Of a stretch of 40,337 nucleotides of DNA, positions 12,547 to 40,337 are shown in pieces. The DNA is from a virus. The stretch is from positions 1-40,337 of IMG/VR virus record IMGVR_UViG_3300040810_001185; one strand, written 5' to 3'. Each line of letters starts with the position of its first letter. The first letter of the stretch is position 1. A program made the position numbers and the translations under genes. A model generated the notes under the pieces. It saw only the letters and a list, made by a program, of their open reading frames with translations. It was not told the DNA's origin and ran no database searches.

Positions 12547-12547
12547 T

Positions 12548-12573
12548 AAAAGCGACCTCCCAGGAGGCCGCTT
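12548..12573. terminator. Terminator between integrase and structural operon
   Basis: AAAGCG-CCTCC and GGAGG-CGCTTT arms with a 2-nt loop and an A/C bulge pair; A and T tracts on both sides allow action in both directions. It sits between convergent genes. Confidence 0.75.
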
Positions 12574-12609
12574 TATGAATGTTTCACTACGATTTCCGAG
12601 CTACTATTA

Positions 12610-12831: not shown

Positions 12832-12843
12832 GATTTATATGGA

Positions 12844-13419: not shown

Positions 13420-13453
13420 GTCTTTCTTTTGTTAAAAGGTTAAAAAACTGTTA

Positions 13454-13780
13454 TCAAGTCACATCATTGAAGAAATTAGTATTCATCAATGTAGCAGCGT
13501 AGTCAATCTCCTTGCCGGAAAGATATGTACTAGGGTAGTCATTTCCCTCAGTGTCTTGCACGATACCGGAGCTATAGACATAATCTGTCTTGATAGATTC
13601 TGTAGTGTCAACTCCTAGTCCTACGACAGCCTGGATGTTGGTTTGTTCGCTGTTCGCGTTTGCGATGATTTCAGCAGCTGTATATGTGACCACTTGGCCA
13701 CCTACACGAAGTTTTACACTGACATTGGTTTCATCTACCAGGTTCAATGTTCGGCTATTTATACTTATTGCTGTTGGCAT
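13454..13780 (-). CDS. Small virion protein candidate (108 aa)
   Basis: 108 residues, no lysine-rich tail, mostly beta with threonine, valine and aspartate repeats: MPTAISINSRTLNLVDETNV, SVKLRVGGQVVTYTAAEI, ending MNTNFFNDVT. It lies between major capsid and tail-tube candidates, separated by 34-38 bp gaps, where head-closure or decoration proteins are usually encoded. No family recognised. Function inferred from order only. Confidence 0.55.
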   Translation of the reverse strand: MPTAISINSRTLNLVDETNVSVKLRVGGQVVTYTAAEIIANANSEQTNIQAVVGLGVDTTESIKTDYVYSSGIVQDTEGNDYPSTYLSGKEIDYAATLMNTNFFNDVT

Positions 13781-13818
13781 TTTTTCTGATTGTTAAAAGT
13801 TAAACTCAGGAACTATAA

Positions 13819-14745: not shown

Positions 14746-15674
14746 TACTTGTCAGATTTAATGTGTAAAAATTTCGCTTGTGCGCGTGCATTGAGATCAG
14801 CAAATGGATCATTGTCCTCTGTGGTCTTGCTGTCTTCTTTTGGGGCAGGAGCAGGAGTCTTCTCGGCTGGCTGGCCAGCGAGCTTCTTGACCTCGTTTTT
14901 CAATTCGATCACTTCTTCCTTCACCGTCTTGAGTTCCTTTGCATTATCTGCCTTCAACATGTCAAGCGCTGCTTCATGGTCTTTTTTCAGCTGAGCGATC
15001 TCTGCATCCTTGTTGGAGAGAGTAGCTTTAAGCTGGGATACCTCAGGAGAGTCATCCTGTGGTTCAGGGTCGTTTTGGTTTTGTTGCTGGTCATCAGCAG
15101 GCTTTCCAGAAAGCTTCTGGAGAATCTTATCTGCTTTGGCATTGAGCTTATCCAGCAATCCTTTTTTCTCTTCAGATTGATGATCTTTCATGAGTTCTGT
15201 ATTGGGGTTTAATGCGAGGTGCAAAGCGTTTGCATCGCTCAGATCAATTGCATCACCCTTTCCATTGTAGAGCCTGACAGCATTGGTATTGGAAGGCATA
15301 GGGACGATAGAGGCCTCATACAAAAGGCATTTCGTGACGGTGGGGCCTGTCTGTCCAGGAAGCATGTCATCAGGATCTTCTGATGTTGCCAGTATCTGGA
15401 TACCAATAGATGCAGCGTTCAGGACTTTGCGATCATATTTGCCGGCTATCTGTGCAGCCTTTTCATCCTCCATATCGAAAATCGGTTCGGCTGTCAGCTG
15501 GTCACCTTCCACGCGATGAGAGCCCCATGTGCCAATAGGCAAAAAGGAATAAGACCGGTGATCGTAAAGCATCACTGGGTTTTTCTCAAATGCACTCAGG
15601 TCTATGCCTGCTGTCAACACACGAAATCCGTATGAGTTGATCGACTCATCGGAAAGTATAATGCGATCTGCCAT
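14745..15674 (-). CDS. HK97-type prohead protease fused to a scaffold-like coiled coil
   Basis: 309 residues. The N-terminal domain (about 1-150) matches the S78/U35 prohead protease: LYDHRSY (H39), LNAASIGIQI (S89) and YEASIVPMPSN (E120 area) form the likely catalytic set. Residues about 165-290 are a charged linker (PADDQQQNQNDPEPQDDSPE) and a long coiled coil (AEIAQLKKDHEAALDMLKAD) typical of a scaffold or delta domain. The protein would assemble the procapsid, then cleave itself and the scaffold. The ATG follows a 14-bp perfect hairpin with U tract by 44 nt. Confidence 0.85.
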   Translation of the reverse strand: MADRIILSDESINSYGFRVLTAGIDLSAFEKNPVMLYDHRSYSFLPIGTWGSHRVEGDQLTAEPIFDMEDEKAAQIAGKYDRKVLNAASIGIQILATSEDPDDMLPGQTGPTVTKCLLYEASIVPMPSNTNAVRLYNGKGDAIDLSDANALHLALNPNTELMKDHQSEEKKGLLDKLNAKADKILQKLSGKPADDQQQNQNDPEPQDDSPEVSQLKATLSNKDAEIAQLKKDHEAALDMLKADNAKELKTVKEEVIELKNEVKKLAGQPAEKTPAPAPKEDSKTTEDNDPFADLNARAQAKFLHIKSDK

Positions 15675-15718
15675 AATACCAGCAATGTCTTACTGGTACC
15701 CATCAGAAAGTAGGACAC

Positions 15719-15760
15719 AAAAAAGGCGTTAATCACACTAAAAATCAGTGTGATTAACGC
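15719..15760 (-). terminator. Strong terminator hairpin before the protease gene
   Basis: Perfect 14-bp stem (15726-15739 with 15747-15760, loop of 7), then six U on the minus strand and the sequence GTGTCCTA. It ends the upstream operon after the LRR gene, 44 nt before the protease ATG. The 14-mer TTTTTTGTGTCCTA recurs before the tape measure gene. Confidence 0.85.
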
Positions 15761-15779
15761 ACTTACCTCAAGTACTGAT

Positions 15780-17501
15780 TTAATAATTCACCGTCCATGA
15801 ATAATTCGCCACCAATCCCTCTCCAGCATAAGCACCTGTGCCATTAATCCGGGCAATGGAGTCAGCAGAAAGCGACCCTGTATTGTTTCGGAGATCAATG
15901 GTAGGTGTGCCAGTCACATCATCCCGCATTTCCCAAAGCTCCACTATGATAGCATCCAGCTCAGCGCTATCCAGATCATTATACTCTACATCAAAAATGC
16001 TGAGATTAGGCTTGCTACTGCCCAAAGTAATTGAAGTGAGAGAATTATTACTCAGATAAACCTGGCCTAAGTTGGGCAGGATCGTTAGATCGATGCTTCC
16101 TGCCAGAGAATTGTCATCAAGATTCACATCCTGCAGGTTGGCATTGGCCTTATAGTCTATATCGGTGATCTGTGCTGATGGAGCCGCGAAGGTCACCAGG
16201 TTGGGGAAGGAGCGAAGGCTGAATGAGCCCAGATCATGAGAACCACCGGAACTGAAGGAAAGTACCCTGAGTCGGTTGGCTTTGCCTCCGGATCCTACCA
16301 GACCAGTGAAAGATGGTGTGGCCAGCGTAAGATTGTCCAGACTGGATGGATCAGAGAACATCTGAAATTTATGATCATCAGATGTGCCGGCATCCACTGT
16401 CACCGGTGTCAAAACACCTTCTGCTACCACCATGGCTTCTTTGGTGGGGCCTGCCTGGAACATTGCACTACAATCTGTGCGACTGTAATAAATGGCTCCG
16501 ACTGTCTGACCGGTGAAGGTTCCAGAGAGTGAAATGGATTTGAAAAATCTGATTTTTGATGATGCGATGTTGCCATAGACACTTTGATCTACGATCTCGG
16601 CATGCACATCTATGAAGTTACCTGCATGCACTGACTCCAAAAGCTTTGCATTGAAGTACAGAGATACACCGGTGGCTGTGGCTTCCATCTCATCCACGAT
16701 ATTGGTTTCAAACTCTCCGGAGGTACCGGTACCTGATATGAAGGTCCAATCTGCAATATCAGTAGGGTCACCATCTGGTCCGATGGAAGCCCTGTACAGC
16801 GGATTTTTGAAATTGCCAAAGGTGTAGACGATCTGAACATCTACACCCGGGGTGATCGGTGTCACCAGATCACCATTACTTCTGCGGGATAGGGGAGCGA
16901 TGGTGACAAGAGCCGGTAGGCATTCGTTTGGGCGTACTACATTAATAAAGGTATATGGCTGGCTGTTGGCACTGGTGGGAATGATAGTCCCTGATGCAAC
17001 GAAGCATGCAGGGCATTTGGCTTTTCTAAAAAAGCCCAGGTCCGCGCTCGTTGTGTCAGACTGAGCCCGGCCTGAGCTGTCACCTGCGAGAGAGGTGACA
17101 AGGGGATTCGATGGATTACCTATGATGCGGGTGCTACCGGCATAGAGATCTACAATCGCAACAGTGTGCTGATTGTTGATTCTACAAAGTTCCTGTATCA
17201 CATCGGCATCAATTCCATGTCTTTGTATTTCTATTCGTTGCTCAAAGTAGTCACCATGCTTGTCTTCCTTCTTGTTTTCGGAGAAGATAGCCTGATTGAG
17301 CTTGAAGTAATATGTCTTAAATCCGGTGCCTGGCTTCATGGCGAGCTCACCACTGATCTCATGATCATCATTGCAGCAGTCCGGATCCCCAAGCAGATGG
17401 GAGGCCGTGGCAATGCGTAGGCATTTGATGCTACCTATTTGAGTCTCGCACTGGCCTGGCCAGCCTTGCAGGGTGCATTTGTCTATGAGTTCTGTGTTCA
17501 T
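15780..17501 (-). CDS. Leucine-rich-repeat protein in the capsid cassette
   Basis: 573 residues from ATG 17501 (the open frame extends to 17552, but the added 17 residues overlap the upstream gene and look untranslated). The first 130 residues are cysteine-rich (CLRIATASHLLGDPDCCNDD) without a signal peptide. The middle (about 190-370) is beta-rich, Ig-like. The C-terminal 170 residues hold four or five leucine-rich repeats (LQDVNLDDNSLAGSIDL, LGQVYLSNNSLTSITL, LSIFDVEYNDLDSAEL). LRRs mediate protein binding and are rare in virion proteins. Placement just before the protease and capsid genes suggests a head-associated or surface protein. The terminator at 15719-15760 follows it. Confidence 0.75.
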   Translation of the reverse strand: MNTELIDKCTLQGWPGQCETQIGSIKCLRIATASHLLGDPDCCNDDHEISGELAMKPGTGFKTYYFKLNQAIFSENKKEDKHGDYFEQRIEIQRHGIDADVIQELCRINNQHTVAIVDLYAGSTRIIGNPSNPLVTSLAGDSSGRAQSDTTSADLGFFRKAKCPACFVASGTIIPTSANSQPYTFINVVRPNECLPALVTIAPLSRRSNGDLVTPITPGVDVQIVYTFGNFKNPLYRASIGPDGDPTDIADWTFISGTGTSGEFETNIVDEMEATATGVSLYFNAKLLESVHAGNFIDVHAEIVDQSVYGNIASSKIRFFKSISLSGTFTGQTVGAIYYSRTDCSAMFQAGPTKEAMVVAEGVLTPVTVDAGTSDDHKFQMFSDPSSLDNLTLATPSFTGLVGSGGKANRLRVLSFSSGGSHDLGSFSLRSFPNLVTFAAPSAQITDIDYKANANLQDVNLDDNSLAGSIDLTILPNLGQVYLSNNSLTSITLGSSKPNLSIFDVEYNDLDSAELDAIIVELWEMRDDVTGTPTIDLRNNTGSLSADSIARINGTGAYAGEGLVANYSWTVNY

Positions 17502-17541
17502 GCAACAAATAAAAAAGGTACTTATATAAAGGAGTAGGGCT

Positions 17542-17841
17542 TTAAGCGGCATTTTGTAAAGGGGTTAAAGGGGTGGCTAATAGCTGCATCACTTTTCCAA
17601 GTGTCTCCAGAGGAGTCTCACCTCTGACTTCTTCTTTTAGCAGGTCCTCAGGGATTTGGTCTATCACTTCCCGTCTGGTCAGCAGCCACTTTTCCAACAC
17701 TATAAACACACGTTCGCCAACTTCTTCAAGCCTGGCGATGATGCCACCTTTTTCGATGGCAAGCCCTAACCGGTTTGAGGGGCTTGCTGGGTTGACAAGA
17801 ATGATGAATGGACCAAAGTCCCTGATGGTTACCTGATTCAT
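17542..17841 (-). CDS. Hypothetical protein (99 aa)
   Basis: 99 residues: a beta-hairpin-like N-terminus (VTIRDFGPFIILVNPASPSN), then GGIIARLEEVGERVFIVLEKWL and an acidic helical end (EEVRGETPLETLGKVMQLLA). The start lies 5 nt after the YodC-like gene stop. No family recognised. It is part of the block of small proteins upstream of the LRR gene and is probably co-translated with them. Confidence 0.6.
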   Translation of the reverse strand: MNQVTIRDFGPFIILVNPASPSNRLGLAIEKGGIIARLEEVGERVFIVLEKWLLTRREVIDQIPEDLLKEEVRGETPLETLGKVMQLLATPLTPLQNAA

Positions 17842-17846
17842 GGGTG

Positions 17847-18239
17847 TTATCTTCTTTTCCTGGGCATCTGCATCTTAGGAGATGCCAGGCCAATTCTGTT
17901 TTTTTGAATTTCATTCTCAAAGCCTTCTAGCTTCTTGATCTGAAGCTTGAGGTTGAGTTGTGTCAGCAGCTGCTGATTGACATGCTGTTCATTGTCAGAA
18001 GCATGTTCCAGTATCTCTGATGGGAAAGCATGTACATGTAAGTCTCCAGATGGAGTCATCCAAATACATTCAATCGAACTCAGCCCACTACTTTTGCCAA
18101 CTGTCATAGGTAAGCTGCCACTTTTGAGCAAAACCGTATCACCAGTCACAAATTCCTGTGGAGTCTCTGCCTTGTCATTTTCCTTGATGGTGCCAAAGTC
18201 TCCCATCAATCTTCCAAGATCACTTTTGGGATCAGTCAT
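17847..18239 (-). CDS. YodC-like (DUF2158) domain protein with C-terminal helix
   Basis: 130 residues. Residues about 29-76 match the YodC/DUF2158 pattern: FVTGDTVLLKSGSLPMTVGK, then IECIWMTPSGDLHVHAFPSE. This is a small SH3-like beta domain of unknown biochemical role that bacteria and phages carry. The C-terminal 50 residues form a helix (LLTQLNLKLQIKKLEGFENE) and a basic tail (MPRKRR). The start overlaps the membrane-protein gene by 8 nt. Function in the phage is unknown. Confidence 0.65.
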   Translation of the reverse strand: MTDPKSDLGRLMGDFGTIKENDKAETPQEFVTGDTVLLKSGSLPMTVGKSSGLSSIECIWMTPSGDLHVHAFPSEILEHASDNEQHVNQQLLTQLNLKLQIKKLEGFENEIQKNRIGLASPKMQMPRKRR

Positions 18240-18894
18240 TTTCCTGTCCTCCTTCCTTTTTCTTCCTGAAGTTCATCCAGGCGAGAGCGCCCAGCGTCAC
18301 CAAGAAGGTAATCGACATGATGATGTCACCCAAGAAGGTGGTATCTCCATCCGTGGATGAATAACGGGGGTCAAGCAGATTGAGCGCTTCCGCAGCGCCA
18401 ATCCAAAAGAAGAATAGGGGGAGTACAACGATGACGGCTTTGCCAAAGTTCATCTCGTACATGTAGTTCTGGAGTCTTTTCCAAAAATTCATACTTAATA
18501 GGTTTGTGTAAAAAATGTGGAAGCTGCCAGCCATGATGGCCTTATACAAAAGAACGTCCAAGAGCAGCCTTACCAAAGGATAATCATTGACAGCTTCGAA
18601 TGAGCCAATGGGTAAGTAATTAACCAGAGAAAGGTTAAGAGCAAGAGCTATGTATATACAGAGGAGTTGTATCTCTTTGAAGAAATGCCAGCTATCTGTT
18701 AAAAAGACCAAGATGCTGGAGGAAAAGGGTAGGGGAGAATTGTGCTTGTTTCTCCATGTATGTGTGCGAGGCCCCCACCATTTGGATCTGAAGCTTCGGA
18801 ATACACTCAGGTAGAATTCACCTGCTGTACTGTGCCGATCCATAACAGCAGTCATGATCCCGGCAAGGGATAGAAGTATAATAGTGAGTATCAT
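18232..18894 (-). CDS. Multi-pass membrane protein (220 aa)
   Basis: 220 residues with about five hydrophobic segments: 1-18 (ILTIILLSLAGIMTAVMD), about 78-100 (IQLLCIYIALALNLSLVNYL), about 115-140 (LLLDVLLYKAIMAGSFHIFY), about 155-175 (AVIVVLPLFFFWIGAAEAL) and about 190-212 (DIIMSITFLVTLGALAWMNF). The C-terminus is charged (RKKKEGGQEND), cytoplasmic by the positive-inside rule. Not recognised. A membrane protein in the late structural block could be a holin or an exclusion protein, but it is long for a holin. It overlaps its upstream gene by an ATGA junction. Confidence 0.65.
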   Translation of the reverse strand: MILTIILLSLAGIMTAVMDRHSTAGEFYLSVFRSFRSKWWGPRTHTWRNKHNSPLPFSSSILVFLTDSWHFFKEIQLLCIYIALALNLSLVNYLPIGSFEAVNDYPLVRLLLDVLLYKAIMAGSFHIFYTNLLSMNFWKRLQNYMYEMNFGKAVIVVLPLFFFWIGAAEALNLLDPRYSSTDGDTTFLGDIIMSITFLVTLGALAWMNFRKKKEGGQEND

Positions 18895-19604
18895 GATACG
18901 GTGTAGCCTTTGATTAAGAAGTCATTGATGATCGTCATGGCTGTTTTTGTGTAGCCTAGCCAGTCACCTTTCTTGATTAATTTTTGAGGAATGTAGTGGG
19001 AACATCTCCTCATATCCTGTTGAGACCTGGAATAGCACCAAAAAATAATTCTATTTCTTTTTCCAATTGACACAGAACAGAGTCTAAAACACTCATTATC
19101 AGATGCTCTAAATTCAAACATTGTGCTCACTTTCTGAGCTAACTCAGAAAAATCGGCCTGCTCCATGCGATTATGCTGGCGATAGGCCGAAAAAAAGTCG
19201 TAGCTGGCCGGGTCTACATTGTGTTCTTTGAGAAACTGATCGATCGCCCACTTCTTATTCCATGAACTGGGTCCGATGTTGAGAGATTTGGCAAGTGCTT
19301 CCTGAGCTCTGACATATCCTCTCATGGCTCGCATGAATTCTCCCTGGAAGAAGTGACCGGCTTTGAGAAAGGGGCGGTTGTATTCGTAGGCCCGGAGCAG
19401 GCTGTGATCCTTGCCCAGGTCGATGACTACATAGTGACCATGCTTGATACGTGGCCAAAACTCTACTCCCATCCACATGTAGGAGAAAGCCATCCTGAGA
19501 TCATTCCGGTGTGAGTGGGTGAGATCGTAGGGGGAAGGTCCATACCTGGTAGCCAGATATGCGTGTACATAGGGTGTAACAGATACCCTGATTTTTGTCT
19601 GCAT
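18891..19604 (-). CDS. Conserved-looking hypothetical protein (237 aa)
   Basis: 237 residues, soluble and basic-aromatic. It starts MQTKIRVSVTPYVHAYLATR. The centre (WAIDQFLKEHNVDPASYDFF and AYRQHNRMEQ) resembles an architecture I have seen in uncharacterised Bacteroidetes mobile-element proteins, with an N-terminal beta region and a helical FLxEHxI-type motif, but I cannot name the family. It is the first gene leftward of the 676-bp non-coding island, transcribed away from it, and couples to the membrane gene. It may act on DNA or control this late block. Confidence 0.6.
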   Translation of the reverse strand: MQTKIRVSVTPYVHAYLATRYGPSPYDLTHSHRNDLRMAFSYMWMGVEFWPRIKHGHYVVIDLGKDHSLLRAYEYNRPFLKAGHFFQGEFMRAMRGYVRAQEALAKSLNIGPSSWNKKWAIDQFLKEHNVDPASYDFFSAYRQHNRMEQADFSELAQKVSTMFEFRASDNECFRLCSVSIGKRNRIIFWCYSRSQQDMRRCSHYIPQKLIKKGDWLGYTKTAMTIINDFLIKGYTVS

Positions 19605-19746
19605 AGACGATGATCGTACTTAGTCAGATTGTTCCCCGTCTTGGAACATACAAAAATCAATCCAATTTTATTAGTATTTCAGCTAATTATTGGGCAATCT
19701 AGCTAAAAATATTACATCTACTCCTGATCGGAGGCCGAAAATGGTC

Positions 19747-20090
19747 AAAATGTTACCAGGTCTTTCGCAAAAAGGTACCCCCCCCTATTTTAGGGGGTAA
19801 CTTTTCACAAAATCCCAAAGCTCCCAAAAAACAACCCTTAACATATTGAATATCAATCACTTAAATGGTGTGAAAAAATCATATTAGGTGTGAAAAAGTC
19901 CCATGGTTTTGGGACTTTTTTTTTCGTTGTGAAAAGTTGGGGATTTTTTGGGAGTTCTTTGGGACTTTTTTTACAACTTTTCACACCACTAAAGCCACTG
20001 ACTATCAGTGATTTATATGATGTTTTGGGAAAATATGATTATTTTCACAACTACCCATCTCTGAAAAACGCGCAGACCTGGTAACATTTT
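19747..20090. repeat. Inverted-end element with iteron-like octamers
   Basis: Ends AAAATGTTACCAGGTCT (19747-19763) and its perfect inverse (20074-20090). Inside are six copies of TGTGAAAA: plus orientation at 19869, 19889 and 19928; minus at 19802, 19978 and 20042. An extended imperfect inverted repeat (CCCAAAGCTCCCAAAAAAC around 19813-19831 with TTTTTTGGGAGTTCTTTGGG around 19945-19964) adds symmetry. ATGGT occurs at 19741-19745 and 20091-20095, a possible 5-bp target duplication offset by one base. It resembles a MITE-like insertion or an iteron/origin locus. Confidence 0.7.
19893..19923. terminator. Terminator hairpin inside the inverted-end element
   Basis: AAAGTCCC and GGGACTTT arms around ATGGTTTT, followed by a long T run on the plus strand and a shorter one on the minus strand. 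It can stop transcription through the element. Confidence 0.7.
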
Positions 20091-20126
20091 ATGGTATAAA
20101 CGAAAGAAAATTTCGTAGATTTCTGG

Positions 20127-20246
20127 TGCTAAACGATTCTCTGACAAAACTGGAATACTATGAATTCAACTCAAATTATGGCTTGGCCCCCGTGGATAGA
20201 TTGTAATGGTCTATTCAACGTATTCTGGTTTTGGAATCGTTTAGCA
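20127..20246 (+). ncRNA. Long imperfect hairpin upstream of the lone plus-strand gene
   Basis: TGCTAAACGATTC (20127-20139) is perfectly complementary to 20234-20246. A second inner stem pairs CAAAACTGGAATAC with GTATTCTGGTTTTG (12 of 14). It ends 34 nt before the ATG at 20281, so it could be a structured 5' leader. A DNA-level role (recombination or protein binding) is also possible. Confidence 0.55.
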
Positions 20247-20280
20247 GCGGGTCAGCCAAGCCTATTAAAATTTATTTCTT

Positions 20281-20547
20281 ATGCTAAGAAAAAACCAAAA
20301 CCACACCGATCTCTCTAACCTGTCGAGAGATCAATTGATCAATCTAATTGATCAGCAGAATCAAGAGCAGTCAGCTCTATTTGACAATTATCTGAAAGCC
20401 TATAAGGCGAGCACCCTCTACTGGGTGATGCAGGATATCCTTGCTTTGCGAGCGATCACTGATCCCATTCATTACATTGACCAGGTGCAGGTGCTGAGTC
20501 GGCGGTATGCTAGTTGGGGAGAGAAGTGTGATGTTCAACCTTTTTAA
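20281..20547 (+). CDS. Isolated plus-strand small protein (88 aa)
   Basis: 88 residues: polar N-terminus (MLRKNQNHTD), then a helical segment LSNLSRDQLINLIDQQNQEQ, and an aromatic helix LYWVMQDILALRAI. No signal peptide or catalytic motif. The LSRDQLINLI start resembles coiled-coil N-termini of some transposase-associated proteins, but this is weak. It is the only plus-strand gene among more than 27 kb of leftward late genes, preceded by a long hairpin and followed by a terminator at 20631-20662. This layout is typical of a separately expressed moron or of a mobile-element cargo gene. Confidence 0.6.
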   Translation: MLRKNQNHTDLSNLSRDQLINLIDQQNQEQSALFDNYLKAYKASTLYWVMQDILALRAITDPIHYIDQVQVLSRRYASWGEKCDVQPF

Positions 20548-20630
20548 AAGAAAAAATTATGTCTAATAAGAATTCAATATGTCGAATCTGACAGTTTTAA
20601 ACTCCTGCAAATGGTGGGTTTTTAACAGCA

Positions 20631-20662
20631 AAGGCCAGACAGCATCATCACTGTCAGGCCTT
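20631..20662. terminator. Bidirectional terminator between convergent genes
   Basis: AAGGCC-A-GACAG and CTGTC-A-GGCCTT arms with an 8-nt loop. The plus strand continues TTTTCCTTTGTCC; the minus strand has TTTGCTG. It separates the plus-strand 88-residue gene from the 338-residue minus-strand gene. Confidence 0.8.
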
Positions 20663-20693
20663 TTCCTTTGTCCTATGTTTGCGGTCTATGTAT

Positions 20694-21710
20694 TTACAAG
20701 AATGATACCACATTGTAGGTACGGCCATTGTCATCCTCCTGGCTTGGCTCTGGAGCCGGTGTCTTGGTGTCTGTGTAGTTAGGGAAGGAATCAGCATTGT
20801 TATCGAGGAAAGTTTTGAGATCGAGCAGGAAGCGCTTGCCAGCCTCCTGGATCGACATCCAGAGACCGGATACAGCCTGCTGACTGGCTGGCTTTTCTTT
20901 ACCGATACCATTCTCCATGGCTGGCTCTATGATCCCCAGTTCATTAAATTTTAGTCTAAAAAATGGGACTGCATAATTTAGCATCCATTCTGCCAGTGCT
21001 AATCTTATTTTATCTAGTAATTCTGCCTGTGCTATGGTGAAATTGGAGGCTGGAGTGGTAAGCATGTTTTTCATTTGGTCAAATAATGCTTCTCCAAGCA
21101 CTGGCTTAATATAATGCAGTTCTGCTTTGTTGATAGCAGGTCTTAATCTGCTGTATATCGCCCGGCCTCCATCGAGTGGAATATAGTTTGCCAATATTGT
21201 AGCATTTGGAATAAATAGTCCAACCTCTTTGCAATAGGCAGCTGATTTATACCAGGTACTGTATTCAATTTCATTCTTCTCTAGGTATCTGAGGGCTTCT
21301 TCTAGCTTTTTGTATCCGTTGCGAAAGGCTTGCTGTCTTCCTGCCTCTGAGACCCATTTTCTAGGGAATAACCATCTACCTTCGCTGTCTACAGCTTCAG
21401 CTGGTCCCATTTCTGAAACTGATAGCGCCAGTCCTATCAGCGTTTTTTCAAAAGTAAACCATGCCACTGCCGGCCTAAGTACTGCAATGGCTGCAATCTG
21501 TGCTGCTGTGGGTGTGCCTGCCAGTGCTGTGATGAGCTCATCATAAAATTCATCCCCCAATACTGGCTTGATGTATTCCGCTTCTGCATCTTCTACAAAA
21601 GGCAAAACTTTCTCCCAGCTCATATTGGTGCTAAAAGCCGGACAGTATCTATAAAGTGATGCTGTCTGGTCTGAGCTTGTATTGTTATATACGTAATTAA
21701 AAAGAGGCAT
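20694..21710 (-). CDS. Head-tail connector candidate with internally duplicated domain (DUF6712-like)
   Basis: 338 residues. Two homologous helical halves are visible: AEAEYIKPVLGDEFYDELIT near residue 45 and AELHYIKPVLGEALFDQMKN near residue 205, each followed by an AQ(I)AxLxxxRxAxAxW helix. I recall this duplicated helical architecture as DUF6712 in Bacteroidetes phages. It directly follows the portal gene (shared base at 21710), the usual position of a head-tail adaptor of the gp6/gp15 type. The C-terminus is a disordered acidic/proline linker ending TYNVVSFL. Function inferred from position. Confidence 0.6.
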   Translation of the reverse strand: MPLFNYVYNNTSSDQTASLYRYCPAFSTNMSWEKVLPFVEDAEAEYIKPVLGDEFYDELITALAGTPTAAQIAAIAVLRPAVAWFTFEKTLIGLALSVSEMGPAEAVDSEGRWLFPRKWVSEAGRQQAFRNGYKKLEEALRYLEKNEIEYSTWYKSAAYCKEVGLFIPNATILANYIPLDGGRAIYSRLRPAINKAELHYIKPVLGEALFDQMKNMLTTPASNFTIAQAELLDKIRLALAEWMLNYAVPFFRLKFNELGIIEPAMENGIGKEKPASQQAVSGLWMSIQEAGKRFLLDLKTFLDNNADSFPNYTDTKTPAPEPSQEDDNGRTYNVVSFL

Positions 21711-23116
21711 TATTCTTCTTCTGTTGTGGCTACAGGCTCTGCGTTAGCTGGTTCTGTTTGCCCTGTTTTGGAAATGTCTTTGGTCACAAGTTTAGGGTTT
21801 TCAAATCCCCAGTAGATTCCAGGGTATTCAGAATCCCAACTATTAAAGCGGTGAATAAAGTTAAGTACTTCTAGCACCTTAGATCTTTCGTAGTTGGCTT
21901 TGGCATCAGCGATGTTCCAGGCTTGTGTCTGCTCGGATCCGGATGACATGCCTTTGGTGGTGATGACATTGGCGAGGCTTGGATTGACATCAAAAGCAGA
22001 GGTAAAGAAGCTATTCATGGCTTCACTAATTTTGACATATGCTTCATCTTTAATTGTCACCTCAATATTTTCAATTATAAAATCACGCTGAGGATCCTTT
22101 CCTCCTGGCTCCATGTAATAGGTGTCAAGAAGTACCTTGCCTACGTTTTGGGGATTGGTGCAGTAATTATGAAACTTTTCTGTAAGCTCCTTATTGATCT
22201 CATCGGCTGTATAATTCTTGCCTGTAGCCTGGTTGATTTTTTGGAGTTTAGTGTTGATGTACTCTTGGTTGACGCTTACACGCATCCTAATTCCCCACAT
22301 GTTTATGATATTGGCTATGTGCCAATGTGGTATCTCATTTTGGAGCTCACCCGTTTTCCGGGCTCCATACCATCGGGGAAGACCATAGTGTGGGAAGCCC
22401 GGAAAAGGTCGCCTGCCATGTGCCAGTACCCTGGAGGTCTTTGCTTCCCCTGGTACAAATTCCATGGTGCTGTGGTCAAAGTAATCTCTCCAGTTAAAGG
22501 CCTTGAAGCGGGTGTGCTCTGTGGTCATGGTGAAGTCTTTCCAAAGACTAGCTACGATGTATTCTTTGATCGCCTGCCCTTTCTTGGCGTTGGGCTTGAT
22601 GGCTCTGACAGTTGTTGGGTCCAGGCGGTTGATGCGTACTACCTTTCTGGGGGCTTCTACCAGTTTGGAGCCTTTGCTGAAGGTCATGCTGGTGAAGAAA
22701 TTGCCAAGCATTTCGAAGTCCATGAAGCAGGCATAAGCCCAGTCATTAAGGCTGTTGTACTCATAGAATCTCCGGATCTCCTCAGGCCACTGCTCTGGCT
22801 TCAGTCTGATCATGCCTTGCTCGCTGTCCTGATACAGTCCCAGACCGGTACCATGCAGGATGGCCACCTTGGTACCGATCAGGCCTAAGGCGATGGGGTT
22901 ATCTATCACCAGCTTGATCAGGTATTCAGGCTCATTATTGGAGCCTTTGTACCAGGGCAGGATCTCTTTGGGTTCGCTGTTTTTGGGGATATCGATCAGG
23001 CCAGCTGAGTAGATGTTGTTGACCGGTGCAGCTCCCCGGTCTCTGTCAGCTCTGAGGGTGACACTCTGACTATCCTTGTCAAAGTCGAAATCCATTACGG
23101 TGTAGTTCTCTCTCAT
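21710..23116 (-). CDS. Portal protein
   Basis: 468 residues, normal for a portal. Characteristic features are a substrate-like N-terminus with GLIDIPKNSEPKEILPWYKG, a stem/wing region (YLIKLVIDNPIALGLIGTKV), helical crown sequence near the C-terminus (KANYERSKVLEVLNFIHRFN) and an acidic tail (TEEE). It lies after the large terminase subunit with one small gene between, the standard place. It would form the dodecameric DNA channel of the capsid. It shares a base with both neighbours (23116 and 21710). Confidence 0.75.
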   Translation of the reverse strand: MRENYTVMDFDFDKDSQSVTLRADRDRGAAPVNNIYSAGLIDIPKNSEPKEILPWYKGSNNEPEYLIKLVIDNPIALGLIGTKVAILHGTGLGLYQDSEQGMIRLKPEQWPEEIRRFYEYNSLNDWAYACFMDFEMLGNFFTSMTFSKGSKLVEAPRKVVRINRLDPTTVRAIKPNAKKGQAIKEYIVASLWKDFTMTTEHTRFKAFNWRDYFDHSTMEFVPGEAKTSRVLAHGRRPFPGFPHYGLPRWYGARKTGELQNEIPHWHIANIINMWGIRMRVSVNQEYINTKLQKINQATGKNYTADEINKELTEKFHNYCTNPQNVGKVLLDTYYMEPGGKDPQRDFIIENIEVTIKDEAYVKISEAMNSFFTSAFDVNPSLANVITTKGMSSGSEQTQAWNIADAKANYERSKVLEVLNFIHRFNSWDSEYPGIYWGFENPKLVTKDISKTGQTEPANAEPVATTEEE

Positions 23117-23424
23117 TAGTGCCTTACTCTGTATCCGTTGTATTCAATGATGGTGTAAAGGGGAACATTAATGGTCTGATTGGCATCCCGATCATATAAG
23201 CGCAGGAGTTTGCGTCTTTTGATCATGGGTTGGAGTCTGTTGCTTTTCCCTTCCTGCTTTTTCCGCTTGTCAGTACCGGCCTTGATGCAGCGGTGTACCT
23301 TTTTGAAGGTTCCTTGCTTGGGGCCTCGGGTCGTTCTGATCCAGCCTATACTGAATTCTCTTGCCTGATTGCCCTCAATTGGCGTGTTGATTTCATCCAA
23401 TACGCGAGTGATAGATACTTCCAT
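23116..23424 (-). CDS. Small basic protein between terminase and portal (102 aa)
   Basis: 102 residues, very basic and apparently beta-rich: MEVSITRVLDEINTPIEGNQ, then REFSIGWIRTTRGPKQGTFK, KRKKQEGKSNRLQPMIKRRK and a C-terminal strand VPLYTIIEYNGYRVRH. Charge suggests DNA or RNA contact, possibly with packaged DNA or the terminase. It directly precedes the portal gene. No family recognised. Its upstream gap (23425-23627) is a candidate packaging site. Confidence 0.6.
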   Translation of the reverse strand: MEVSITRVLDEINTPIEGNQAREFSIGWIRTTRGPKQGTFKKVHRCIKAGTDKRKKQEGKSNRLQPMIKRRKLLRLYDRDANQTINVPLYTIIEYNGYRVRH

Positions 23425-23627
23425 AGAACAAAAATGAGGGCAATAGAGGGATATTTATAGGACAAAGAGAGGGTCTTTGAATTAATGTTGTAACTTTCTT
23501 TTAATCAGATAATTAGACGAGTCTAAAAATATATTTAGAGTGAATTTGTCACGCGAAATCGCGCGCCCATTGACGAAAAGCAAAAAACAGATTTGCAAAA
23601 TCATGAAATATGCACGTAAATCATTGA
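23425..23627. other. 203-bp gap between terminase and portal block; packaging-site candidate
   Basis: No gene seen. It contains TTAGAC-GA-GTCTAA (23513-23526), a CGCG-AAAT-CGCG hairpin near 23552-23563, a weak CAAAGA/TCTTTG hairpin near 23461-23479 and TGTCCTA on the minus strand (23464-23458). cos or pac sites often lie near terminase genes; none can be proven here. It likely also holds a promoter for the 102-residue and portal genes. Confidence 0.45.
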
Positions 23628-29400: not shown

Positions 29401-29719
29401 CACCTACCTTTCCAAATACTCCAGGAAGTTTTGAGAATCGGGCTGAAAGTTGATTGGCATTTTGCTTGCCCTTTTTGCCAATTTGGTCTTGCTCATCGGC
29501 TAATCCCCGGGCTGCTTTTCGGGTTTTTTTGAGTTCTTCTTCCAGCTTCTTGATCTCAAGCGCCTTTTTGTTAAACTCTTCACTACCTGCCTCCAGATGT
29601 TTGATCTCTCCTCTCAGCTTTCGGTAAGCCTTTTCCATGTCACCCAGTGTCCTTTTTACCGGTTCACCGTTGATTTCTATCTCAATCTGGACTTTATCAC
29701 TTCTTACTGATCCTGCCAT
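26408..29719 (-). CDS. Tail tape measure protein
   Basis: 1103 residues. The N-terminus is coiled coil (YRKLRGEIKHLEAGSEEFNK), then a glycine-rich hydrophobic region (GKVGGAIGGSISKLLGPLGL, about 105-135), the TMP core (FENAREEVSKFTDLTGEGLS, AYAVIASGIVDGAFQDKIPD), long coiled coils from about 470 to 900, a second hydrophobic segment (YPAAIPFQVIAAAIGAKQIQ) and the usual FATGGHVRQGSIGVIGEKGA C-terminal region. It sets tail length and may help DNA entry; a length of 1103 residues suits a long tail. It is preceded by a hairpin with U tract 41 nt before the ATG. Confidence 0.9.
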   Translation of the reverse strand: MAGSVRSDKVQIEIEINGEPVKRTLGDMEKAYRKLRGEIKHLEAGSEEFNKKALEIKKLEEELKKTRKAARGLADEQDQIGKKGKQNANQLSARFSKLPGVFGKVGGAIGGSISKLLGPLGLVITGITGIVAGAKELFVMSQEFENAREEVSKFTDLTGEGLSEVNAQIMAISRTFEQDFNEVLRTGSANANVFGTEMTETLDLIEKGLLATGHQGQEFLDQIKEYAPALKAAGLEQEEAYAVIASGIVDGAFQDKIPDAIKEFNVRIKDLTNGQREVLEKSFGVDFTNNIVNGIKTGEKTSIEALNEIGGKMGELGADSAETQAVISNLFGGPGEDVGADFIIGLQNIKGSMDEVVDTSNIYIQRQIEQLEVEKELTAAQEEISMSLSGVGHWFGVVTKRVKTFILQGIARASTSIRYLVDNFKIFRVQAAESINVVLRALSNLVNNLFTAINAINGLLGIKEIENIDLTIDVEVSSEDLKQQLQDKVAKQREDFEKAQEIKRKQAAQRQEQATRSTRLKERQNTLDAERNLTTKELKKQAEVYAKAEMEINKLMVDLMQEGEEKQIAQLRLQTDQKKAALKGSVEQIAAQQKLLEAQYLEQLEVIRNQSADKELEDIKAQAQAKIDALTGTSEEIQAQRLQIELDAGKQINDTVNQNLDEQIQLIKDQAAARKQIIIGDSDTITAEMEAQIKESEQRMTNEITQIQTSAKAKQAAAMADIRKSSADSQQKQFDDELNQIQQRYGQEELFAIQNAVKRLEDGEDQKEVQEQLNDELLALNEKLLAEKKALEDKFGVDSVATQKEIEKKKMDATLKRTEKQKKSEEELLEAENERLKKIMKSLQMIGDLVNQVSELNQAALDADLNKIESNKKKELDAAGDNEAKKRSIEEKFAKQKEAAEAKAAKRQKAISIAQTIINTAQSIVKTAATIGYPAAIPFQVIAAAIGAKQIQAIQAQPFEEGGATVQTDGKNYFYQGQKLNQRESFATGGHVRQGSIGVIGEKGAEWVAPNWMMTSTKYSPIIQELEKVRVRGFAVGGATTPADTAVNVQNATASNDAIIAELKLLRQDMATMKYITVWGEKEALMNAEVYDAWQQRSSTGGI

Positions 29720-29760
29720 GAAACAAAAATATCAGGATCAATACATGATATATAGGACAC

Positions 29761-29787
29761 AAAAAACCGGTAGCTGTGAGCTACCGG
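29761..29787 (-). terminator. Hairpin with U tract 41 nt before the tape measure ATG
   Basis: CCGGTAGCT (29767-29775) and AGCTACCGG (29779-29787), loop GTG; on the minus strand it is followed by TTTTTTGTGTCCTA, identical to the sequence after the hairpin before the protease gene. Confidence 0.85.
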
Positions 29788-29913
29788 CCTACCTTGCATT
29801 TCACTGAGAAATTAGTACAGAAAACCTCTGTCCTACCTCTTCAAAAAAAGCTTTCTTTTTTCAATTATAATATATGTATCAATTTTTGATATACAAAATT
29901 CTGGTACCCAAAT

Positions 29914-29942
29914 AAAAAAAGCGACTATCTCTAGTCGCTTTT
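29914..29942 (-). terminator. Terminator after the 80-residue gene
   Basis: AAAAGCGACTA (29917-29927) and TAGTCGCTTTT (29932-29942), loop TCTC, with A7 on the plus side giving U7 on the minus strand. It ends the 80-codon transcript 33 nt after its stop. Confidence 0.85.
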
Positions 29943-29974
29943 AGCCCTATACAGGAGAATTGAAGTCTCCTTAC

Positions 29975-30217
29975 TTACTTATTCTCAATATCAGAAATTA
30001 TCCCATTTATGTCAAAATTTGATACATCTACTTCTTCACTATGTTTGAATACCTGTGAAATAATTCGCTGGTATCGTTTTGGCTTCCAAAGCACCTTCAA
30101 GAGGTTGCAGAGTAGCCATAGCCGGAAATTGGCCTTTTGGAGTTGAATTTCCTGAGAAATTACATGGGTTTCTAACTGTTGGATGACAGTTCCTTGGGTT
30201 TGATCGGTGTGTAGCAT
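29975..30217 (-). CDS. Small protein under a structured leader (80 aa)
   Basis: 80 residues: polar N-terminal helix (MLHTDQTQGTVIQQLETHVI), aromatic/basic middle (FRLWLLCNLLKVLWKPKRYQ) and an acidic end (DVSNFDINGIISDIENK). No family recognised; the middle could be an amphipathic or membrane-bound helix. It forms its own unit: a structured leader ending in a U tract lies 27 nt upstream and a strong terminator lies downstream. Its first codons (ATGCTACACAC) are complementary to a strand within the leader, so translation may be gated. Confidence 0.6.
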   Translation of the reverse strand: MLHTDQTQGTVIQQLETHVISQEIQLQKANFRLWLLCNLLKVLWKPKRYQRIISQVFKHSEEVDVSNFDINGIISDIENK

Positions 30218-30239
30218 AACTCAATCATCAAAATGTTTA

Positions 30240-30385
30240 GCATAAAAAAACGGCTTAGAAAGGCGCTGCTACACACTATACTGTCCCCAGTAAGTATATC
30301 AGGGGGATTGCTCCGTCCCTACACCTATTCTAAGCCTTATTTTGTAAGTGTTAATAGGGGCCCAATACGTGTGTAGCAGTGCAAT
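30240..30385 (-). ncRNA. Highly structured switch-like leader RNA candidate
   Basis: Read on the minus strand it contains CACTGCTACACAC (30381-30369) pairing with GTGTGTAGCAGCG (30276-30264, one G-U), CCTATT with AATAGG (30358-30353 with 30330-30325), and GGCTTAGAA style arms (TTCTAAGCC at 30328-30336 and GGCTTAGAA at 30252-30260 on the plus strand) closing just before seven U (30250-30244). TATACT/AGTATA with GGGG in its loop can pair with upstream CCCC, a pseudoknot. The same GTGTGTAGCA strand can alternatively pair with TGCTACACAC at the downstream start codon (30216-30207). Confidence 0.6.
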
Positions 30386-30722
30386 GATAACAAAAAAGGG
30401 CTACCTGAACAATCTTGTAGTCCTGTTGACCCAAATGAAGGATTTAAAATCAAATTAAGCTATTACAATTTTTGCCGTGCTTCCGTTTTTGACGGCACCT
30501 GTTTTTAAAGGAGGAAGCCCAGAAACATAGCTATTTTTCAGTCAAAAGCACTTCGATATTTCCTTTATTCCTCTCTACTAGAAAAAATCTACTCAAATTC
30601 AATTACAATTTTTAATGTACTTCCGTTTTTAATCAGCAAAAATAGCTTATGTTTAAATGTCTTTATGTCAAAAGACATAAGGCACGTGTTGACTCTGGCT
30701 GTGACAGGCCAGGGTTTTTTTG
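30386..30722 (+). ncRNA. Possible plus-strand non-coding transcript ending in a terminator
   Basis: The region lacks long frames, apart from a 24-codon plus-strand frame starting at 30384. It contains a 29-nt imperfect direct repeat (30462-30490 and 30602-30630), a TGCCGT/ACGGCA hairpin (30473-30497), competing GCTTCC/GGAAGC arms (30479-30518) and TTATGTC-AAAA-GACATAA (30663-30680). A plus-strand terminator closes it although no plus-strand gene precedes it. A small RNA antisense to the end of 30723-31301 or acting in trans is possible. Confidence 0.45.
30693..30721 (+). terminator. Plus-strand intrinsic terminator without an obvious gene
   Basis: CTCTGGC (30693-30699), 8-nt loop, GCCAGGG (30708-30714), then seven T (30715-30721). 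There is no U tract on the minus strand. It abuts the stop codon of the minus-strand gene at 30723. Confidence 0.75.
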
Positions 30723-31301
30723 TTACAGATTCATATTCCCACCAAATGCTTTCTTCTTGATATCATCTCCTAGTTCTTTTGCGAAGAAATCAGCCTGATT
30801 CTTACTTAATCGCTCAATGAGTCGGATGATAAGCTTGTAAATGGTGCGATTGTACCAGGCACCTCTCCTCCTTCGCTTGTATGAAGGTTTGGGTGTGGCT
30901 GCAATGATCGCTGAAGCAAAGCGCTCCATTTTTTCATCTTCGCTCAGGTTTTTGGCTTTCCCGTCTTTGTAGCCTGGTACTTTCTTCATGTATTTTCTTC
31001 CCCTACCCCTTGCCCATTTCAACATAAAGTTTTCCTGTGTGGTGATGGGCCTTTTTGTCCATTTGATTGATCGCGGCCTGATGTCTACCATCCTGGAAGC
31101 ATCGGCAAAGCTGAGCCGGTATCCTGTAAAGGTAGCGCCAGCTGCCTGGAACAGATCATGTCTGAGATCGTCCGCTGTTCCTTCAGGGATATGTCTCTCT
31201 CGCTTGGCGATGGCTGCCCGGAGTGTCGGATCTACATCCTCCCTTATCCACAAGCGGATTTCCCTCTCTATAAACTTATTTTGCTCTGCTATGCTGATCA
31301 T
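30723..31301 (-). CDS. Basic tail-associated protein (192 aa)
   Basis: 192 residues, strongly basic: EREIRLWIREDVDPTLRAAI at the N-terminus, KWARGRGRKYMKKVPGYKDG mid-protein, YKRRRRGAWYNRTIYKLIIR and a helical C-terminus. Its ATG overlaps the stop of the 636-residue tail gene. The size, basic charge and N-terminal helix resemble tail-completion or neck proteins, but the family was not recognised. It is the last gene of the distal-tail operon in transcription order. Confidence 0.55.
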   Translation of the reverse strand: MISIAEQNKFIEREIRLWIREDVDPTLRAAIAKRERHIPEGTADDLRHDLFQAAGATFTGYRLSFADASRMVDIRPRSIKWTKRPITTQENFMLKWARGRGRKYMKKVPGYKDGKAKNLSEDEKMERFASAIIAATPKPSYKRRRRGAWYNRTIYKLIIRLIERLSKNQADFFAKELGDDIKKKAFGGNMNL

Positions 31302-36805: not shown

Positions 36806-38164
36806 TTAATTTTCTTTGATCATATCAAGGTATTTTTTTGCTGTTGCCCAGCTCATATCGGTCGCCTTGGCGATGGCATTGGCACTAGGCTCCTTACCAG
36901 TCTCTTCAATTATCTTTTTTCTGGCCTTTGTGACCTTTGTGAGTTGACGCTTCTCAGCCTTACTCATATCATATTTCTTCCCCAGGTTATAAGGAGTGTT
37001 ATTTGAGAGGTAAATTGTGGAGCTGGAATGAGATGCCTCAGGCCTCTCAAAACTCTCAATCTTTCCCGTATTTTTGAGAGTTTCACCTCTCATTTCTTTC
37101 TCCATTTCAGCTCTCAATTCTTCTCTGATTTCAGCTCTCATTTCAGCAGTGATTTTTGAGAGGTCATTGGGATTCTCTCCCCTTTGTTGATGGAAGCCAA
37201 TGGCAGTTTTAGGCAGAGCTCCAAATCCTACTGAATGATTTTGGCTACTATGCGAAGGCTTATTCACCTTCCTTCCCAGGAACAATTGAACATCATAGAG
37301 AAAGTGAGCATTGAAAATTGATATCCCCAGCCCGATTGGATAAATGAGAAAAACTATCAGCCTGATTGCTGTGGTCGCTTTTTCCTTTTTGTGTGCATGT
37401 TTCTTTGATTTCCTGTTGAAACTTGCTGTCTCTGTGTTCAGCCTTGTCTGGTAAGTTGCATCCAAAGCAGCGATGGCTAGTTCTCTATCTGCTTCCTTTT
37501 GCTCCTTTTTTTGCAGGAGATCTGCGATCAATGCCCTGCCATAAGGAGTCTTCTTTCCCTTCCAATAGGCATTTCCTCTCTTTCCATTATATCTCCCCTG
37601 TTCAGTAGTCGTTCCATTTTCAGCAGCTGCAAGGCGCGCCTCTAGCTTGGCGATTTCATTATCATACTTCAGGGTGGTTTTTTCTTTTTCTGCAGTCCAC
37701 TCAGCTGTTGTGCTAACCAATGGAGCATCATCAACTATGATTTGAGAATCGGCATGTCTTTCAGCTGCTTGCTGGGCGCCCTGGATGTTTGCGAGGATGG
37801 AGATCCCAGCAAAACATAGATAAAGCCCTGCTGCGATATAGCCAGCAAAGCGTAGGCTATCAGAAAGCTGCTCTGGGCTGTTGATGCTTTTTCTATATGC
37901 GACAAAAGCATAGGCGATCACACCAACTGATACTGTCGCTGCCATCGCAAACGAAACTGATAATATCAGCCCAGGCACATCTCCTGCAGATCCTATGTAT
38001 GAAAGATAGTCTGCAAAAACAGAGTAGCTGATCCAGCTATCAAAAGTAAAAGCACCAATGAGAAGAAGGGTAAAAACGAACCAAGCCCAGAAGCGAGCTT
38101 GTAAGTCAGGCGACTTGGCGAAGCCACCGGTGAGACCCGTGGCGAAGATTTTTAAAACTTTCAT
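36806..38164 (-). CDS. Multi-pass membrane protein with C-terminal helix-turn-helix (452 aa)
   Basis: 452 residues. Three membrane helices lie near the N-terminus (about 27-47 WAWFVFTLLLIGAF; 60-88 LILSVSFAMAATVSVGVIAY; 103-125 AGYIAAGLYLCFAGISIL). A long charged helical region (about 155-250) follows, then one more membrane helix (about 265-290 IRLIVFLIYPIGLGISIF). The C-terminal third is cytoplasmic-like, with a coiled segment (EMRAEIREELRAEMEKEMRG) and a final helix-turn-helix (KEPSANAIAKATDMSWATAK). A membrane-tethered DNA-binding domain is unusual and could anchor DNA to the membrane or sense the envelope. A structured leader lies upstream (38188-38243). Function unknown. Confidence 0.7.
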   Translation of the reverse strand: MKVLKIFATGLTGGFAKSPDLQARFWAWFVFTLLLIGAFTFDSWISYSVFADYLSYIGSAGDVPGLILSVSFAMAATVSVGVIAYAFVAYRKSINSPEQLSDSLRFAGYIAAGLYLCFAGISILANIQGAQQAAERHADSQIIVDDAPLVSTTAEWTAEKEKTTLKYDNEIAKLEARLAAAENGTTTEQGRYNGKRGNAYWKGKKTPYGRALIADLLQKKEQKEADRELAIAALDATYQTRLNTETASFNRKSKKHAHKKEKATTAIRLIVFLIYPIGLGISIFNAHFLYDVQLFLGRKVNKPSHSSQNHSVGFGALPKTAIGFHQQRGENPNDLSKITAEMRAEIREELRAEMEKEMRGETLKNTGKIESFERPEASHSSSTIYLSNNTPYNLGKKYDMSKAEKRQLTKVTKARKKIIEETGKEPSANAIAKATDMSWATAKKYLDMIKEN

Positions 38165-38187
38165 GTGTCATTTGGTTTACGATAAAT

Positions 38188-38243: not shown

Positions 38244-38358
38244 CGCATACAGCACACACATAGCCTGGAATTCTTGGCTATATCTAAATGGAGATAAAAA
38301 TTGGAGTTGTCATTTGTTTTACGATATGTCAAATCTAAGACAAAAATTTGTTTATGAC

Positions 38359-38389
38359 AAAAAACCTCAAGCGCTTCCAACACTTGAGG
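38359..38389 (-). terminator. Terminator after the LamG-like gene
   Basis: CCTCAAG (38365-38371) and CTTGAGG (38383-38389) arms, followed by U6 on the minus strand. It ends the fibre cassette. Confidence 0.8.
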
Positions 38390-38456
38390 TATTTTATAAT
38401 ACAGACCAGAAAATATGAATATTTAACTGGCGCGGTAGGTAAATGTAAAAAAATAC

Positions 38457-39504: not shown

Positions 39505-40337
39505 TTAACTAATTACAACATAAACTGTCAAGCCCTGGGGTGCTGTTCCGCCTGTAGGAGTGCCAGTAAGATTAAGTTTTAATAAATCCCATTCCTCTAC
39601 ATCATCATTTGATGTATTTATCACTGCTGGTGTAGACGCTGTCCCAGAATGTGCTTCATTCGCATCAATAGTTAAGATTGTAGAGAGGATGGCAACGGTT
39701 GTGCCGTTTCGCTCTCTTTCTATCTCTATATCTATTGTTCCTGTTGTGCCAATTCCATCTGTGCCCACTTTTGCTCCTATATGGGTAATGTCTCCCGTGA
39801 TTCCGTGAGGGATTAATATCAACCCTTTTCCGTCTGCTTCCTCGGCTGCTGCTACATCTGTGCCGGCAGCTATAAGCTGACACGATAATTTGTGGTGGGT
39901 CGGGCCTACTAATGAGGTACCACTTCCCCATGATCCACCTGTTTTCGGGCCGAAAATAGTGTTGTTAGATGTATTTATATAGAAATCACCGTCTACCCCT
40001 TCCGTTGTTGGGTCGATACTTCCGTTTAATACGGTTGCGCCATCGGCACCATCTGAGCCATTAGCACCGGCTGGTCCGGCAGGTCCTTGTGGGCCGGTTG
40101 CGCCATCGGCACCATCTGCGCCATCAGCACCGGCTGGTCCGGCAGGTCCTTGTGGGCCGGTTGCGCCATCGGCACCATCTGCGCCATCAGCACCGGCTGG
40201 TCCGGCAGGTCCTTGTGGGCCGGTTGCACCATCGGCACCATCTGCGCCATCAGCACCGGCTGGTCCGGCAGGTCCTTGTGGGCCGGTTGCACCAGCTGGG
40301 CCTTGAGGCCCTACCAAGCTGACAGCAGTGATTCCGG
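39505..40337 (-). CDS. Collagen-like tail fibre, C-terminal part (5' end lies at 1-614)
   Basis: The frame is open from the window end to a stop at 39505. An internal TTG at 40317 could be mistaken for a start, but the frame extends to the window edge and matches the gene that starts at 614. It begins with four or more 21-residue collagen-like units ([20 protein letters not shown]). These are followed by a non-repetitive C-terminal domain of about 150 residues, starting near [10 protein letters not shown] and ending TVYVVIS, which looks like a small beta-rich trimerisation or adhesion head. The next gene (LamG-like, start 39503) begins right after the stop, so the two are probably co-translated. 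Function as a receptor-contacting fibre is inferred. Confidence 0.85.
40022..40300. repeat. 63-bp tandem repeats coding for collagen-like units
   Basis: Units start at 40085, 40148, 40211 and 40274 (the last partial), with a diverged unit before 40085. Each full unit is 63 bp and encodes 21 residues of Gly-X-Y triplets on the minus strand. Such repeats change copy number easily by slippage. Confidence 0.9.
40211..40337. repeat. Right copy of 127-bp terminal direct repeat
   Basis: Identical to bases 1-127. Merging the two copies keeps the minus-strand tail-fibre frame intact (codon at 128/40337/40336), which supports circularity. It does not prove the exact repeat number at the junction. Confidence 0.9.

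Follow-up and report, generated by a model that had tools for sequence, protein, structure and literature searches.

The leader of the hok/mok/sok mRNA combines an occluded start region with an overlapping upstream open reading frame (ORF) and alternative long-range pairing. In the timPR type I toxin-antitoxin system, the timP mRNA leader adopts mutually exclusive conformations, one of them pseudoknotted, that gate the start of a small ORF, and the coupling of hok and mok is cited in the same work (PMC11228461). Little of the cis-regulatory RNA repertoire of Bacteroidota phages has been mapped. Here we describe a putative RNA leader encoded at positions 30200-30385 (minus strand) of a 40,337-nt virus record from IMG/VR, IMGVR_UViG_3300040810_001185, which was analysed at its full length and is called the window below. 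Judged from its repeats and pairings, this region probably acts in cis as an RNA switch for small accessory cassettes, of a kind outside Rfam.

The phage and its relative

The window encodes a tyrosine integrase, a DnaG-like primase, a match to prohead protease/major head proteins, a large terminase and a tape measure gene, and its protein matches are largely to Bacteroidota phages. By this gene set and these matches, the phage is classed as temperate, or as derived from a temperate phage. The sole close relative found is a 21-kb record (G001) that aligns to positions 3979-23537 of the window at approximately 76-97% DNA identity. This alignment stops short of 30 kb and the 30200-30385 leader falls outside its coverage. 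The two ends of the window record are identical over 127 nt (1-127 and 40211-40337), within a gene for a collagen-repeat tail fibre, and could mean that the genome is circular or that a repeat has produced an artefact.

Repeats and predicted folds of the leader

The strands of the minus-strand RNA are named a, b, a', b' and c (Table 1). An earlier sequence-only reading of this DNA had reported a 10-nt sequence occurring three times, and all of its coordinates are right: GTGTGTAGCA lies at 30207-30216 and 30369-30378 on the plus strand and TGCTACACAC at 30267-30276, with the three copies inside 186 nt and no further exact copy of either sequence in the 40,337-nt record. The closing stem that it described at 30252-30260/30328-30336 is likewise exact (GGCTTAGAA/TTCTAAGCC). 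It can be lengthened to 16 nt at 88%, and seven U come after it at 30250-30244, which gives the G+C-rich stem and U tract of an intrinsic terminator. Allowing one mismatch, the upstream pair a-a' reaches 14 nt (30263-30276/30369-30382), and the order a-b-a'-b' has the pseudoknot topology that had been claimed for it.

Such an arrangement seldom arises by chance. Among 300 simulated genomes matched in size and composition, one had a mixed-orientation 10-mer triple within 180 nt, and the 9-nt exact complement to b that forms P2 was reached in 27 of 3000 shuffles. A further scan sought any ATG under a 9-mer that has its complement upstream and another direct copy above that. The window has one such ATG (30217) and the relative also has one (3732, the start of the g1 gene described below), and 18 of 1000 simulated genomes contained any. 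The terminator hairpin has z-scores of -4.3 to -5.1, and its stability alone is unremarkable because about 20 other minus-strand stretches of 120 nt score equally well or better.

Three mutually exclusive nested folds of a 221-nt RNA compete, with computed energies of -53.6 kcal/mol for a-a', -52.3 kcal/mol for the b-b' terminator and -49.4 kcal/mol for a'-c; the energy model leaves out pseudoknots, and a-a' and b-b' could coexist. For most transcripts that include strand a, the ensemble calculation assigns a-a' a probability of approximately 0.9 and leaves a few percent for the terminator and approximately zero for a'-c, and for a transcript beginning below strand a the terminator is formed at 98%. 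Because the close contest is between a-a' and the terminator, and a'-c is the weakest fold, the leader taken alone resembles, in these models, a pairing of antiterminator and terminator more than a switch at the start codon.

This outcome bears on three proposals of the sequence-only reading. The choice of a' between a and the start copy c is upheld in so far as the complementarity is exact and the same contest recurs with other letters in the leaders w2 and g1 described below, but here a'-c ranks last in stability, and the start-codon pairing is the weakest state in w2 as well. The terminator is also partly upheld: its stem and U7 are present, but a U-tract terminator is missing from both w2 and g1, and therefore it is not a conserved part of the element. 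The same reading took competing stems over a start codon as the hallmark of a riboswitch or other cis-acting RNA regulator, and the riboswitch part of this finds no such backing. That label is unsupported because no ligand is indicated, no ligand-pathway gene adjoins the leader, and the Rfam classes do not match, in agreement with the remark in the same reading that no known riboswitch class is recognised.

Table 1. Coordinates of the parts of the 30200-30385 leader and its cassette, and of the second leader, w2, in the window
Feature	Positions	Strand	Remarks
Strand a, upstream copy with TGCTACACAC	30369-30382	-	P1 partner of a'; extended by 30357-30368; P1 duplex -30.9 kcal/mol
Strand b (GGCTTAGAA at 30336-30328)	30326-30343	-	5' arm of P2/branched terminator
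P3 hairpin GGGACGGAGCAATCCC, between b and a'	30304-30319	-	GGA/UCC part forms in computed folds
Strand a' (GTGTGTAGCA core at 30276-30267)	30263-30285	-	Common to both alternative pairings
Strand b' (TTCTAAGCC at 30260-30252)	30245-30260	-	Closes terminator stem
Seven-U tract, intrinsic-terminator-like	30244-30250	-	Directly 3' of branched hairpin; from sequence
c1 ATGCTAAAC	30221-30243	-	ATG matched by covariance model to w2/g1 starts; 23-codon ORF; 9/10 nt pair with a'
c ATGCTACACAC	30207-30217	-	80-codon ORF start; repeats a exactly; can pair with a'
80-codon ORF, putative regulated gene	29975-30217	-	Predicted all-helical, pLDDT 69
Intrinsic terminator 3' of 80-codon ORF	29917-29942	-	
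w2 strand a (TGCTAAACGATTC) and distal P1 strand CAAAACTGGAATAC	20127-20158	+	
w2 strand b (GGCTTGG..CCCGT)	20180-20193	+	
w2 P3 hairpin GGATAGA/TCTATTC (orthologue GGATACA/TGTATCC)	20194-20216	+	
w2 a' strand, distal GTATTCTGGTTTTG, proximal GAATCGTTTAGCA	20220-20246	+	
w2 b' strand (GCGGG..CCAAGCC)	20247-20262	+	Without a U tract after it
w2 c, ATGCTAA...CCAAAACCA, start region complementary to a'	20281-20303	+	
88-codon gene behind w2 leader	20281-20547	+	75% identical in relative; purifying selection

A second leader and its orthologue

When the phage was searched for similar inverted repeats, only two other places were returned, one of them at approximately 20120-20250 on the plus strand. 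This is the leader w2 (20116-20303), which lies ahead of an 88-codon gene and has an orthologue, g1, in the relative (L011 3894-3710). Both follow the order of elements seen in the 30200-30385 leader: a, b, a hairpin, a' and b', then c over an ATG. In w2, b' is followed by TTATGCTAA, which is the beginning of the 88-codon ORF. Between w2 and g1, the gene differs at 27 of 55 synonymous and 36 of 209 nonsynonymous sites and is thus under purifying selection.

All 29 pairs in the four helices (P1, both parts of P2, and P3, pseudoknot included) form in both w2 and g1. Five of these pairs vary and every one is kept, two with both sides changed and three with a change on one side. The one-sided changes give G-U on the sense strand and A-C on the other, which favours a sense RNA over a DNA cruciform. 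When the partners are slid by 1-3 columns, pairing falls to 28-45%, and differences between the two sequences occur in 7 of 58 paired columns compared to 51 of 130 unpaired ones. A shuffle control (118/500) is low in power because the covariation comes from two sequences. Given these results, we take w2/g1 to be a genuine structured RNA ahead of a genuine gene, on a test carried by only two sequences. A peptide encoded in the w2/g1 leader, MAWPPWI[D/H]CNG, was considered as a stalling peptide and rejected; it is without protein-level selection (5 of 22 synonymous and 23 of 89 nonsynonymous sites differ) and is missing from the 30200-30385 leader.

In its distal part, P1 has different letters in w2, g1 and the 30200-30385 leader, yet is complementary within each. 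The a'-c pairing is a perfect 22 nt in g1 (duplex -33.6 kcal/mol), 6+9 nt in w2 and 10 nt in the 30200-30385 leader. The preferred fold differs between copies, with g1 favouring a'-c (-72.1 versus -61.7 kcal/mol) and the other two favouring P1, and only the competition, not the resting state, can therefore be called conserved. Compensatory changes are seen in P1, P2 and P3 of w2/g1, and a'-c is kept with different letters in all three leaders, but the relation of the 30200-30385 copy to the others is marginal.

Relationship among the three leaders

Local alignment of the 30200-30385 leader scores above 300 of 300 shuffles against w2 and 297 of 300 against g1. A covariance model trained on w2 and g1 only, with P1 and P3 included (R1), ranks this leader first and at full length both within the window and across 283 kb of phage DNA, when the training elements and their own complements are excluded. 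Its E-value is marginal (0.05-0.4), and the reverse complement of w2 scores 17.1 bits compared to 17.7 bits for the leader. P2 and a'-c, which are not part of R1, are present in the leader, and the distance from a to c is similar over the three (162, 155 and 152 nt). A three-sequence alignment has two-sided changes in 4 of 17 pairs and zero unpaired cells, although it was fitted to the model structure and is biased towards it. Models that omit P1, whether sequence-only or built on the start-codon helix, fail to recover the 30200-30385 leader. We consider kinship with w2/g1 likely, above an even chance, rather than proven because the sequence-only model misses this copy.

No homologue of the 30200-30385 leader itself was returned by Rfam, BLAST or tblastn. 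Rfam gave no gathering-level match in the window, and permissive scans of 29600-30800 and 19990-20360 produced matches far below curated scores only. Apart from the one relative, no close DNA or protein homologues of the leader or its neighbours were found in IMG/VR, INPHARED, PLSDB or GTDB contigs at the sensitivities used. Since no orthologue of this copy was found, the orthologous covariation speaks only for the helices of w2/g1. A DNA-pattern scan for TGCTACACAC(80-105)GTGTGTAGCA matched one unrelated viral contig (L014), which carries an A/T-rich hairpin there and was taken as a chance match.

The 80-codon ORF and its start

The 80-codon ORF has no detectable homologue in protein searches, and its codon usage is intermediate: 12.5% of true gene pieces score lower and 11.7% of wrong-frame pieces score higher. 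With no homologue and ambiguous codon usage, its status as a gene is unproven. An ORF of 80 codons arises in 8% of shuffles of regions of this length. No sequence similarity is detectable between it and the 88-codon gene, neither protein has a convincing Pfam, PHROG or PDB-fold match, and a structure search with the 88-residue model gave nothing significant. Both products are predicted to be helical, which lends the ORF weak support.

The choice of start is a further consideration. The ATG at 30217 lies under the exact third repeat, with 10 of 10 nt complementary to a', and a second ATGCTA at 30243, with 9 of 10, rivals it as the start that matches those of w2 and g1 but opens only a 23-codon ORF.

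Other repeated and structured elements of the phage

Several further elements were recorded. A 17-mer, TCGTAAAACAAATGACA, occurs with small variations at 10260-10293, 38153-38184 and 38295-38331, and in the relative at L011 13786-13822. It resembles a repressor operator. Its tandem copies lie close to the divergent early region and on either side of the leader that precedes gene 36806-38164. The heptamer TGTCCTA (29759, 23464, 15717 and 1020 on the minus strand; L011 86 and 8297) lies 39-43 nt 5' of the start codons of four genes in the window (tape measure, prohead protease and two others) and two in the relative, twice directly after a hairpin and TTTTTTG. It looks like a late promoter of the phage, and it is not present ahead of the 80-codon ORF. 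The Bacteroidota promoter motif TAnnTTTG was rejected as a guide; its sites are uninformative because they are near-equal on the two strands (15 and 14) despite nearly all genes being on one.

A hairpin element of approximately 65 nt, closed by GGGGAC/GTCCCC and with inner AAGTTCTTT and TTAATAATGCA, is present at 3307-3372 and 4885-4949 and at L011 19129-19198. A structured element of approximately 100 nt at 38356-38455 is 83% identical to L011 11444-11540; it adjoins the integrase in the relative and lies 26 kb away from it in the window, as if moved. The stretch 5' of the w2 leader (19780-20060) holds many copies of GTGTGAAAA/TTTTCACAC, where the relative (approximately L011 4210-3980) has TTGGGAAAA/TTTTCCCAA, and these repeats have changed in concert. 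Inside the primase gene, 8201-8340 is predicted to fold very stably (-63.6 kcal/mol for the 140 nt, z approximately -10) and belongs to a stretch unusually conserved between the window and the relative.

A proposed switch and its alternatives

We propose that, in a temperate Bacteroidota phage, a small and self-contained accessory cassette of moron-like type sits between tail genes and has this region as its 5' leader. Terminators flank both this cassette and that of w2, which runs against its neighbours; the relative ends before 30 kb. In one state, a would hold a' as P1 and leave the ATG region c free, and in the other a' would pair with c and cover the start codon. During synthesis a could capture a' before c is made, and release of a' would then allow a'-c to close the start. 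The b-b' helix interleaves with P1, and in this copy, where it ends in U7, it could halt transcription before the ORF. If the RNA is made and its states exchange, translation of the small ORF would be set by them, with order of synthesis, an antisense RNA, a bound protein and translation through the leader as possible triggers. A bistable leader of an accessory cassette, as a diverged member of the w2/g1 set, appears to be the best explanation of the whole, and we would place it slightly on the favourable side of even.

The region could instead be read as an ordinary branched intrinsic terminator (30337-30244) that ends an upstream minus-strand transcript, with TGCTACACAC as the operator of a phage or host regulator and the ORF start falling in the site since such sites cluster at promoters. 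The hairpin with U7 is stable, other strong terminators stand just before genes (29790-29764, ahead of the tape measure gene, and 38242-38192, a branched one ahead of 36806-38164), and the phage has other repeated operator-like motifs. However, one site would be expected for the regulator of a single phage, and the arms instead are TGCTAAACGA in w2 and TGCTACACAC here, each complementary within its own leader. The w2/g1 changes are also compensatory, with G-U on one strand, and the other two leaders have no terminator, and thus we find this account unlikely. Sheer coincidence, in which chance inverted repeats sit beside a spurious ORF, would draw on the frequency of 80-codon ORFs in shuffled regions, on the marginal covariance-model match and on a pattern chosen post hoc. 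The rarity of the triple, the ATG triple and P2 in the simulations and shuffles above, and the same pattern at the g1 start, make it highly improbable.

A small mobile palindromic DNA element (MITE or REP-like) could owe such structure to mobility. Short hairpin elements are indeed present in the phage and its relative, at intergenic positions that differ, and the leader has approximately 120 bp bounded by P1 with 14-nt inverted ends. This we judge quite improbable, as no second copy of the leader occurs in the record or the relative, w2 and g1 share the same place, no target duplication is seen, and conservation reaches into the start codon of a selected gene. A type I toxin-antitoxin-like locus, with a hok/mok- or timP-like mRNA whose translation is blocked by the fold of the mRNA together with an antisense RNA, has a similar pseudoknot, occluded start, overlapping upstream ORFs and cassette layout (PMC11228461). 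The encoded proteins, however, are predicted helical products of 80-88 residues and not short hydrophobic membrane peptides, and the leader ORF is without protein-level selection. The antisense promoter is only putative; the one exact TAnnTTTG site that might serve, at 30040 on the plus strand, belongs to a motif about equally frequent on both strands. Such a locus is in our view improbable.

Returning to the bistable leader, we advance tentatively, and with slightly less than even expectation, that the three copies define a new phage leader RNA family absent from Rfam. Its members would share a pseudoknotted core in which one strand has two possible partners, one upstream and the other at the start codon of a small accessory gene. 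The three strands would change in concert without loss of the competition, and one phage would have two unlike copies. If true, a family of bistable leaders would preside over uncharacterised accessory genes of temperate phages. Its discovery depended on comparing two unlike copies and one orthologue, and the three covarying strands offer direct and cheap mutational tests.

Comparison with known systems

Like attenuators and the expression platforms of riboswitches, the 30200-30385 leader places one strand in two exclusive helices and has a terminator hairpin with a U tract. It differs from them in that no aptamer or ligand was identified and Rfam gave no match, and w2 and g1 are without the terminator. 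Functionally, the element seems to work like a translational attenuator; its status as a riboswitch or toxin-antitoxin locus is not established. With hok/mok/sok, the phage leaders share an occluded start, an overlapping upstream ORF and alternative long-range pairing, whereas antisense RNA and mRNA processing are features of hok/mok/sok, the leader ORF of w2/g1 is not conserved as a protein and the encoded protein is another one. The timP leader resembles the 30200-30385 leader in its mutually exclusive folds, its pseudoknot and its control of access to a small-ORF start (PMC11228461). It differs in being enterobacterial, in encoding a short membrane toxin, in sequestering the SD, in its antisense RNA TimR and in forming its pseudoknot between two stem-loops (PMC11228461), and the likeness to the leader is one of arrangement, with no sequence relation shown. 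By this analogy of parts and proposed action, timP and hok/mok appear to be the nearest working analogues of the phage leader.
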